In this document: positions 11,245-38,686 of the stretch, piece by piece
Layout: each line of letters opens with the position of its first letter
Numbering within the stretch: the stretch's first letter is position 1
From: Candidatus Shapirobacteria bacterium
GTDB taxonomy: Bacteria; Patescibacteriota; Microgenomatia; 0-14-0-10-38-17
DNA: 45,511 nt
Reading direction: 5' to 3'
NCBI GenBank assembly: GCA_018052565.1
Contig: JAGPNC010000001.1
Span: 1 to 45,511 of the forward strand
The notes under the pieces: model-generated
What the model was told of the DNA's origin: nothing
Seen by the model: only the letters and a program-made list of their open reading frames with translations
The model's database searches: none
Made by a program: the position numbers and the translations under genes

Positions 11245-11349
11245 ATGAGACTAACCACCCCGGCAAGGGAAAAGTTGCTAAATTGTTGGGTTTCTCCGGT
11301 TGATTCGCTGTGGGCAAAAAACAAAATAACCAAAATGGTTGTGACATAA
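11245..11349 (+). CDS. Possible 34-aa small protein ending in a large palindrome
   Basis: An ATG at 11245 opens 34 codons (starts MRLTTPAREKLLNCW, ends KITKMVVT). Upstream, TACTATAACTATAGCGGCAAG places -10-like words about 7-15 nt from the ATG, the same geometry as the leaderless-looking promoters at rpmE and 10580. The TAA stop falls inside the 42-bp palindrome at 11339. No family is recognised and the evidence is weak; this may be an untranslated short RNA region instead. Confidence 0.25.
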   Translation: MRLTTPAREKLLNCWVSPVDSLWAKNKITKMVVT

Positions 11350-11380
11350 AATTGAGCGATCGCTCAATTTTATGTCACAA
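11339..11380. repeat. Perfect 42-bp palindrome, no loop
   Basis: The left arm TTGTGACATAAAATTGAGCG plus A is followed at once by its exact reverse complement, centred on GCGATCGC. There is no mismatch and no spacer. No T-run follows on either strand, so it does not look like an ordinary terminator. It lies 111 bp upstream of tRNA-Val. It could be a cruciform-forming site, a dimeric protein operator or a resolution/termination site. Confidence 0.9.
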
Positions 11381-11480
11381 GGGGAAGAAACCTAATTTTC
11401 ATCAGCACAGCGGCTACGGTCGCCCCGCAGTACTTTAACAATTTAACCACCAAACAATTTAAATATGTTAGAATAATAAC

Positions 11481-11486
11481 TATAAT
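11481..11486 (+). promoter_or_regulatory. -10 element of the tRNA-Val promoter
   Basis: A consensus TATAAT lies 5 nt before the first base of the mature tRNA, preceded by TTAGAATAATAAC. No strong -35 is seen. The short distance means transcription starts at or almost at the tRNA 5' end, leaving little or no leader for RNase P. Confidence 0.6.
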
Positions 11487-11491
11487 TTCAG

Positions 11492-11565
11492 GGGCAGTTA
11501 GCTCAGTTGGCTAGAGCATTCGCTTGACATGCGAAAGGTCACAGGTTCAAGCCCTGTACTGCCCA
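11492..11565 (+). tRNA. tRNA-Val (anticodon GAC)
   Basis: The acceptor stem GGGCAGT pairs perfectly with ACTGCCC. The D stem is GCTC/GAGC. The anticodon stem TTCGC/GCGAA encloses the loop TTGACAT with anticodon GAC, reading GUC/GUU. The T arm is ACAGG-TTCAAGC-CCTGT. The discriminator base is A, and the genome continues CCT, so the 3' CCA is not encoded and must be added by nucleotidyltransferase. Confidence 0.97.
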
Positions 11566-11624
11566 CCTCGTTATTTAGTATTATGTACCAAATGGCAGGG
11601 ACATAATTCTTTAGGATAGAATAT

Positions 11625-14477: not shown

Positions 14478-15731
14478 ATGACTAAAAAATTTTTACTAAT
14501 CGCATTAATAGTTGTTGCGGTTGCTGGTGTAGCTACGGCGGCAGTGTTGTTTCTTTTCCCATATAACCCTGCTCAACCGCCGCGAACAGACGATACGAAT
14601 TCAACCCCGCAAGGGATTAAAGATGTTGTTAATGCAAATAATAAATTCGCTTTTGACTTATATTCTCAATTGAATAAATCCGAAAAAGGAAATATTTTCT
14701 ACTCCCCGTATAGTATTTCAGCCGCATTGGCGATGACTTATGAGGGGGCAAAGGGACAAACCGCTGATGAGATAAAGTCCGTTTTTCATTTTCCCGACAA
14801 CAACATTTTAAGACCAAATTTTGCCGCAATTTACAATGGCATCAATAAAGGTACGAAAGATTATGAATTGAAAACTGGAAATGCTTTATGGGTCCAGAAA
14901 AATTTTCCTTTGCTTCCTGATTTCACAAGCAGGGTTGAAAAATATTATGGAGGGAAAACGGCTAATTTGGATTTTATCAAAGAAAGCGAGAAATCAAGAC
15001 AGGTAATCAATGACTTCATAGGAGAACAGACGAATAATAAGATTAAAGACTTAATTCCCCCTGGTTCTCTTGACAATATGACGCGGCTTGTTTTGACTAA
15101 TGCAATTTATTTTAAGGGAACTTGGCAATGGGAATTTGATACTTCAGATACCCGAAATGAGGATTTCAAGATTACGGTGGACAATATCGTAAAAGTCCCG
15201 ATGATGAAGATGAATCCAGAAAAAGCAAGTTTCAATTATGCCGACACTGAAGATGCTCAAATTTTGGAATTACCATATAAGGGCGACAAAATCTCAATGT
15301 TGGTGATATTACCAACCAAAGATCTTGCTTCAATAGAATCTTCTTTAACAGCGGAAAAATTGAACGAGTATAAATCCAAGATGAAAGAAACGAAGTTGGA
15401 GTCAATATCGCTTCCAAAATTTGAGTTCGGTACCAAGTATTTCATGAAAGATGCCTTGAGCGCATTGGGGATGCCAACCGCCTTTTCAGAAAGTGCCGAC
15501 TTTTCCGGAATAACAGGGAAAGAAGATTTATATATTAACTTCGTTATCCATCAAGCGTATGTTAAGGTTGATGAGAAAGGAACAGAAGCAGCAGGAGCAA
15601 CTGCTGTCGGTATAGAAACTGTAGCAGACGTGCCAAGGTTTAATGCGAACCATCCGTTTATCTTTATTATCCAAGAAAAAGATACCGGAAACATCCTATT
15701 TTTGGGCAGGGTAATCAATCCAGCAAATTAA
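14478..15731 (+). CDS. Membrane-anchored or secreted serpin (serine protease inhibitor)
   Basis: The 417-aa protein has an N-terminal hydrophobic segment (5-28) followed by a Pro/Thr linker, then a full serpin fold. Recognisable parts are NKFAFDLYSQL, NIFYSPYSISAALAMTYEGA, LVLTNAIYFKGTWQWEFD, PMMKMNPE and the end NILFLGRVINPAN. The hinge is of the inhibitory type (GTEAAGAT, 368-375), so it should trap a target protease as a covalent complex. Counting from P15 at Gly368 puts P1 at Val382, which would suit an elastase-like or alpha-lytic-like protease (inference). The gene is flanked by repeat H copy B and repeat R copy 2, as the DUF2330-like gene is by the other copies. It is likely acquired; it may protect an epibiont's surface proteins from host or competitor proteases. 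Confidence 0.95.
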   Translation: MTKKFLLIALIVVAVAGVATAAVLFLFPYNPAQPPRTDDTNSTPQGIKDVVNANNKFAFDLYSQLNKSEKGNIFYSPYSISAALAMTYEGAKGQTADEIKSVFHFPDNNILRPNFAAIYNGINKGTKDYELKTGNALWVQKNFPLLPDFTSRVEKYYGGKTANLDFIKESEKSRQVINDFIGEQTNNKIKDLIPPGSLDNMTRLVLTNAIYFKGTWQWEFDTSDTRNEDFKITVDNIVKVPMMKMNPEKASFNYADTEDAQILELPYKGDKISMLVILPTKDLASIESSLTAEKLNEYKSKMKETKLESISLPKFEFGTKYFMKDALSALGMPTAFSESADFSGITGKEDLYINFVIHQAYVKVDEKGTEAAGATAVGIETVADVPRFNANHPFIFIIQEKDTGNILFLGRVINPAN

Positions 15732-37015: not shown

Positions 37016-37163
37016 GGATTAAAAAAATTCAAAAGTTAAAAGGCAAAATTTAAGTTTTAATCTCAAAACTTAAATGTCAAATGGCAAAACTACATGGCAA
37101 ATGTTAAATCTTTTTAGAGTTTTGAGACTAGTTTTCTTTTAGATTTGAGTTTTAACATGTAAT
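37013..37163. repeat. 151-bp pilin-upstream repeat, family A copy 2
   Basis: This is the second copy of 36309-36459, at the equivalent place before the FimT-like gene. Near-identity over 151 bp between two AT-rich non-coding stretches points to recent duplication or gene conversion. Confidence 0.9.
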
Positions 37164-37190
37164 CTCATCCGCCAGCTGGCGGATGAGATT
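37161..37190. repeat. Perfect 30-bp palindrome in the pilin intergenic region
   Basis: AATCTCATCCGCCAG is followed immediately by its exact reverse complement. The core CCGCCAGCTGGCGG also occurs at 20292 and 38579. The remaining gap up to 37366 contains a second GC motif (CCTGCCTTGGGCGGG) and no gene. Confidence 0.85.
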
Positions 37191-38444: not shown

Positions 38445-38686
38445 GTATTAAAAAAATTCAAAATTCAAAAGGCAAAATTCAAAAATAAAATAATAAATCA
38501 AATATCAAAGATCAAAGCGTAGAGCCAAGATCAAAAACCAAAGCTTTAAAATGTTTTTGAATTTTGATCTAGGTTCTATCCGCCAGCTGGCGGATAGAGT
38601 TTTGAGTTTTACTTATACATAATACTTAATACCTAATACTTGATACTTAATACATGATACACCATACAAAATACAATATGCAAGTT
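38445..38686. repeat. Pilin intergenic hairpin, family B copy 2
   Basis: TAGAGCCAAGATCAAAAACC and GAATTTTGATCTAGGTTCTA form the arms, with a perfect 24-bp palindrome (TCTATCCGCCAG plus complement, 38575-38598). Serial ATACTTAATACCTAATACTT words follow at 38615-38665. No gene is seen. Confidence 0.75.

Follow-up and report, generated by a model that had tools for sequence, protein, structure and literature searches.

A perfect 42-bp palindrome of a Shapirobacteria genome, probably a miniature mobile element, belongs to a repeat family resembling the palindromes that bracket PaaX-like genes in related bacteria

Among short dispersed palindromes of bacteria, REP/REPIN sequences are bracketed around a cognate gene, the RAYT, that carries the same palindromes on both sides; some copies lie inside genes and solo copies are thought to be mobilised in trans by the RAYT (PMC3733652). 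The Rickettsia palindromic elements (RPE), about 150 bp long, are found in frame within unrelated housekeeping genes of a reduced genome (PMC10969869). HIP1 of cyanobacteria has the sequence GCGATCGC (PMC4390886). Here we describe a palindrome in the genome of a Candidatus Shapirobacteria bacterium and compare it with these systems; the stretch of 45,511 nucleotides that was analysed is referred to as the window. The palindrome is probably a miniature mobile DNA element, and not a one-off sequence or an integration site.

At positions 11339-11380 of the window the sequence TTGTGACATAAAATTGAGCGA is followed immediately by its exact reverse complement, which gives 42 bp without a spacer (Table 1). 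A sequence-only reading of the window had called it a perfect loop-free palindrome that is rare by chance, and both statements hold: the 21-base arms are exact, about 1.8e-8 perfect palindromes with arms of at least 21 are expected in the window at its own base composition, and the longest perfect arm in ten Markov-1 simulations of 193.5 kb was 10. As single-stranded DNA the palindrome folds with -19.5 kcal/mol (z -9.8). Its flanks are ATGG and GGGG, and the next longest perfect palindromes in the window, of 30 and 24 bp, both belong to another family. The central octamer is identical to HIP1; identity with HIP1 was rejected by count, since GCGATCGC occurs only 6 times in the 193.5 kb sampled (1.3 expected), three times as the centre of the palindrome family described below.

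Table 1. Positions in the window of the palindrome, its parts and the neighbouring tRNA gene
Feature	Position	Strand	Remark
Left arm	11339..11359	+	exact palindrome read from the sequence
Right arm	11360..11380	+	exact reverse complement of the left arm
Centre GCGATCGC	11356..11363	.	inner CGATCG fits the CGNNCG centre of PaaX-bracketing palindromes
Outer TGACAT box	11342..11347	+	same register as the (T)GACA box in PaaX-bracketing palindromes
Mirror box ATGTCA	11372..11377	+	
Covariance model R2 match, 40.3 bits	11340..11379	.	top match among the 40 genomes searched
tRNA-Val (GAC)	11492-11567		

The window palindrome is not unique and belongs to a small dispersed family. In the genome to which it belongs (the own genome, G000, an assembly of 840,423 bases in 44 contigs), a 148-kb sample of 15 stretches held a second perfect palindrome, of 40 bp, at C12:979-1018, and a pattern search of the whole genome gave five sites. 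These share the arms TGACATAAA and carry a TGACAT box on both sides. The covariance model R1, which was built from the five, added C36:35974-36019 and C23:7531-7584, while a weak match at C21:6183 (E 2.2) was left out of the count. In all, the own genome has seven full copies and one half copy, at C21:10779. The sequence-only reading had named relatives with a single arm as a finding that would speak against it; none was found, a half copy being present in the own genome.

The two perfect copies (on C6 and C12) show paired differences at arm positions 3 and 14. Five of the seven full copies have a CG-centred core like GCGATCGC, in place of which the copies on C27 and C23 have CGCCARYTGGCG. All seven are intergenic and none lies within a convincing gene, the C23 site overlapping one 86-codon reading frame of doubtful status; where a copy has two clear neighbours, these are mostly co-directional. 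Could the palindrome have arisen by misassembly or strand fold-back, the genome being metagenome-assembled? Such an artefact is exceedingly improbable, because independent copies with differing inner arms and flanks stand on C5, C12, C23, C27 and C36 and the second perfect copy carries its changes in both arms as pairs; relatives show the same architecture.

Other inverted repeats are present in the same genome. Palindromes with the core CGCCAGCTGGCG (usually TCCGCCAGCTGGCGGA) occupy 18 sites, in the window at 1010, 20293, 35707, 37161-37190 and 38575-38598; their outer arms vary between copies, some copies are perfect to 24-30 bp, and we have set them apart from the family of the window palindrome as a different one. 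The copies at C27:10484-10533 and C23:7531-7584 (L225, L228) are composites in which outer arms of the TGACATAAA type enclose a core of the CGCCAGCTGGCG type; they give the impression that the centre of one palindrome was exchanged for the other. Two family copies (L010, L011; C5 and C21) have another dispersed hairpin, approximately ATTTCTGC..AATCAACTCCGGAGGTTGATT, no more than about 100 bp away. In addition, A+T-rich inverted repeats of AAAAGTTAAAA / AATTTTGAATT-like units are found in many spacers between 28392 and 44272 of the window, including those around pilin-like genes at 35-43 kb.

The palindrome lies 139 bp past the stop codon of the gene before it, and 112 bp upstream of tRNA-Val. 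Upstream are the genes for trigger factor and a DUF5660 protein; downstream, after the tRNA, come a protein of 613 aa that matches DUF2330 below the threshold, then a serpin and a synthetase of the threonyl type. The serpin gene (14478-15731; PF00079, E 4e-122) is located not far downstream of tRNA-Val in a small bacterial genome. The sequence-only reading had placed the palindrome at the left border of an accessory region and proposed a binding, resolution or integration site. An attachment, resolution or integration site at such a border, for which the distance to the tRNA gene speaks, is very unlikely and largely refuted: two related genomes (G002 and G009, where the tRNA of the latter has another anticodon) have trigger factor, gene and tRNA-Val in the same order, and the palindrome is absent from both. 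The tRNA is no element-specific target, because its neighbourhood is conserved there without the palindrome; moreover, the other six full copies of the own genome are intergenic elsewhere, and the five neighbouring proteins that were scanned include no integrase. The spacer before the tRNA is 291 bp in the own genome, 92 bp in G002 and 24 bp in G009, and no exact empty site was present among the closest genomes compared, which belong to other genera. What survives of the earlier proposal is the binding site, in the sense that the palindrome is probably recognised by a DNA-binding protein linked to mobile DNA, while the tRNA-linked border does not stand.

The location also suits a bidirectional terminator or mRNA-end hairpin, in which the inner stem TTGAGC-GATC-GCTCAA with its A and T tracts would end the DUF5660 gene ahead of tRNA-Val. 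The tRNA has a promoter-like site of its own (11458-11486), and the palindrome scored as terminator-like, with the tail CCATTTTGGT, on the minus strand only. On the plus strand only four T (TTTT) follow the inner stem, which fits the earlier statement that a standard terminator with a T-run is not present; termination has no need of the conserved outer TGACAT boxes, and terminator-like sites in the window are barely more numerous than in shuffled sequences (35 vs 28.7 and 34 vs 29.4). As termination would leave the sequence conservation across the copies and the match to the PaaX brackets unexplained, we regard this reading as quite unlikely. Termination by the palindrome could be a secondary effect.

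The bracket palindromes came into view in related genomes. A search with R1 of 280 genomes of the class gave eight genomes besides the own one at E <=0.01, of which about three are expected by chance, the four weakest (E 0.005-0.007) possibly being such chance matches. Three of the ten sites outside the own genome touch PaaX-like genes. In G255 one gene lies between two near-identical palindromes, and its 261-aa product matches PaaX_M (1.9e-22), PaaX_C (9e-7) and Cas2 (1.1e-5); in G056 the match overlaps the start of another PaaX-like gene. PaaX_M, a domain of the PaaX repressor, was found in 121 of the 280 genomes, with up to 11 copies each, and is carried by 7/8 genomes with R1 hits vs 114/271 others (p 0.013). 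The profile search gave no PaaX_M match in the own genome, and the stretches fetched from it contain no PaaX-like frame, with one weak match at E 0.0035.

We then compared the surroundings of 87 PaaX_M loci, namely 30 that were returned and 57 picked from at least 150 so as to favour multi-copy genomes, all chosen by score and copy number with no random draw. If a bracket palindrome is defined by a CGNNCG centre and by 12 or more pairs out of 18, such palindromes stand at 84/174 gene ends vs 1/166 control windows from the same stretches (p 4e-29), and matching ones are present on both sides of 35/87 genes vs 0/79 controls. They are 34-40 bp long and centred on CGNNCG; the upstream centre mostly lies 0-60 bp ahead of the start codon and the downstream centre mostly 0-39 bp past the stop codon. 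About half of the ends lack such a palindrome, and some genes have none on either side (e.g. L327, L328, L331). The two ends of one gene are matched: in the 39 genes with at least 12 of 18 pairs at both ends, the palindromes of the same gene agree on average at 28.5/40 positions, vs 16.2/40 for different genes. In the alignment A2, made from the 24 genes with CG..CG centres (48 ends), paired changes number 282 (shuffles, 133) and the CG..CG columns show no variation, both features being biased there by the preselection of the ends for pairing and centre; the comparison with control windows (84/174 vs 1/166) is therefore the fair count.

Many of the proteins encoded between these palindromes are short (about 170 aa) and multicopy. 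Winged-helix matches are found in one of them (L304), and among 86 aligned PaaX-like proteins the Asp position of the FDIPE motif is Asp in 78 and Glu in 8; this Asp is catalytic in Cas2 and might serve a nuclease action here. The Cas2-like, probably DNA-binding proteins of the bracketed genes have been little studied.

Models built from other genomes recognise the window palindrome. A weight matrix was derived from 33 of the 39 genes (66 ends, none from the own genome), six genes having been dropped whose ends disagreed or were without the common centre. With this matrix the window palindrome is the top site of the 45.5 kb, at 22.2 bits with the next at 14.7, and in the 148-kb sample of the own genome it places C12 first and C5a second; five of the own copies score 15.4-22.2 bits and those on C27 and C23 fall below zero. 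The covariance model R2, for which 48 PaaX-bracketing palindromes from other genomes were used, scores the window palindrome highest among 40 genomes (E 3.4e-7), these being the first of each kind, PaaX_M-positive and PaaX_M-negative, among the PaaX_M results. With the own genome excluded, R2 sites are present in 10/20 PaaX_M-positive vs 2/19 PaaX_M-negative genomes (p 0.009), and 7/17 PaaX-positive genomes remain without the three training genomes (p 0.04). The window palindrome has both the CGNNCG centre and the TGACA-type boxes in register. We class it as a solo relative and not as an element end, because no PaaX_M gene lies between two copies in the own genome.

Solo copies are frequent in some relatives. 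The single-contig genome G043 has 54 R2 matches, counted over both strands, at E <=0.1, and none of 18 stretches with R2 sites fetched from it contains a PaaX-like reading frame; its solo copies form subfamilies, one of which is similar to the ends of L293, a PaaX gene of that genome. Two solo copies of G001, which is of the same family as the own genome, share arms with the ends of its PaaX gene, and in G218 and G255 solo copies match the PaaX ends of the same genome; a solo palindrome of G197 is unlike both PaaX-side palindromes fetched from that genome. Some solo copies sit after or inside genes. In nine scanned reading frames G043 and G001 carry in-frame copies, and four of these were compared with solved homologues: the copy corresponds to extra residues 84-95 in TatD, 398-409 in a ValRS-like protein and 357-368 in MurE of G001, whereas in YchF it occupies residues 240-251, a variable loop, with no added length. 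One glycosyltransferase gene of G043 (L354, 4194-5312) contains two CGATCG-centred palindromes in frame.

A fixed-spacing pattern was run on 59 genomes, among them the own one; in the others it matched with 3 mismatches only, and its reversed control also matched in many genomes. R2 at E <=0.1 matched 5 of the 155 stretches of a background set, which comprised 37 viral stretches and 118 stretches of genome records, out of at least that many matched by a loose pattern: two of Doudnabacteria (L133 and L168), one of Parcubacteria (L085), one of a Deltaproteobacteria MAG (L107) and, weakly, one of Secundilactobacillus (L150). This corresponds to 3/6 records counted as CPR vs 2/112 other genome records, and no PaaX-like ORF was found in the five stretches. 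The Doudnabacteria palindromes are at 1392-1431 of L133 and 439-478 of L168. Judging from such sequence matches, the family may extend past the class to which the window belongs. The exact core pattern had no match in the viral contigs, where the single PaaX-like gene found had no bracketing palindrome. Distant PaaX relatives occur in 16 plasmid records, all from actinobacteria, and phage-family profiles gave weak matches only.

How do these palindromes compare with the described systems? Like REP/REPIN sequences they are dispersed in many copies, with seven full ones in the own genome and the 54 matches of G043. RAYT, however, is a Y1/HUH transposase, whereas the protein bracketed here has a PaaX/Cas2 fold, and a RAYT link in the own genome was rejected on zero matches to Y1_Tnp (PF01797). 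The palindrome centre is a loop-free CGNNCG, and the GTAG or CGTC tag at the foot of REP/REPIN hairpins is lacking at the window palindrome; among 33 bracketed elements, GTAG was near three, CTAC near three and CGTC near one. In-frame intragenic copies, as described for the RPE, are seen in the relatives G043 and G001; the seven own copies are intergenic. The size (about 40 bp) and a likely partner gene in relatives set the palindromes apart from the RPE. As in MITEs and the terminal inverted repeats of IS elements, this is non-autonomous short inverted-repeat DNA, but here a single palindrome without an interior makes up the element, with no established target-site duplication. In the open-access library searched, no paper joined PaaX or Cas2-like proteins with palindromic repeats.

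The likeness of the bracketed genes to the PaaX repressor family (PF20803 PaaX_M, PF08223 PaaX_C) raises the main rival, according to which the palindromes are operators of a PaaX-like autorepressor, the upstream copies being promoter-operators and the solo copies its regulon, with no movement needed. The genes score far above the cut-off of PaaX_M, a domain of the repressor, although the match of the G255 protein to the PaaX equivalog TIGR02277 is far below the cut-off (67 vs 265 bits). The upstream palindromes keep to the short distance from the start codon given above, and many contain TTGACA. Recent duplication of whole PaaX elements is likewise lacking: no near-identical recent copies were found, and the flanks of some PaaX genes are homologous in different genomes (e.g. 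L269/L296), so that these genes seem to have been inherited and not to have hopped. RAYTs are mostly inherited vertically, and in both respects the PaaX elements resemble them. An operator does not account for the second, matching palindrome right behind the stop codon, nor for solo copies after and inside genes, some of which add residues to housekeeping proteins, and the own genome keeps perfect copies without the regulator; many bracketed proteins, unlike the repressor, are short, multicopy and placed between paired palindromes. As an account of the whole family the operator is thus unlikely, while an operator role of the upstream copy in addition is likely.

We favour, with some reserve, the reading of the window palindrome as a solo, non-autonomous copy of a miniature palindromic class whose cognate protein is a PaaX-like protein with winged-helix and Cas2-like domains. 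The class would comprise palindromes of about 36-46 bp with a CGATCG-type centre and TGACA-type outer boxes. The PaaX-like protein would dimerise through its Cas2-like domain, the winged-helix domains of the dimer would bind the symmetric arms or an extruded hairpin, and the protein, presumably by catalysis of its own, would mobilise or copy the palindrome in trans. Partner and palindrome are not seen together in the own genome because it has no PaaX_M match; there the gene would be absent, perhaps lost, or unassembled, and the seven copies would therefore be orphans, two of them still perfect and the others decaying. By analogy, the best reading is a REPIN/RAYT-like logic with a Cas2-fold partner, in which the window palindrome is an orphan miniature mobile palindrome whose movement we infer.

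More tentatively still, and at a strength that we would call doubtful, the palindromes may represent an undescribed class of mobile DNA in ultra-small bacteria, in which a winged-helix and Cas2-fold protein, without Cas1 or an HUH or DDE transposase, recognises and spreads its cognate palindromes of about 40 bp as a self-contained system, also in frame into housekeeping genes. If true, CRISPR-independent DNA mobility by a Cas2-fold protein would have a living example here. If the favoured pairing of palindrome and protein is right, many small bacteria would hold a palindrome and PaaX/Cas2 system that parallels REPIN-RAYT with a different protein fold. This would suggest a cellular role for many PaaX-like genes (121/280 genomes searched), would account for the scattered perfect palindromes in otherwise streamlined genomes, and would make it possible to test whether proteins of the Cas2 fold take part in DNA mobility apart from CRISPR.
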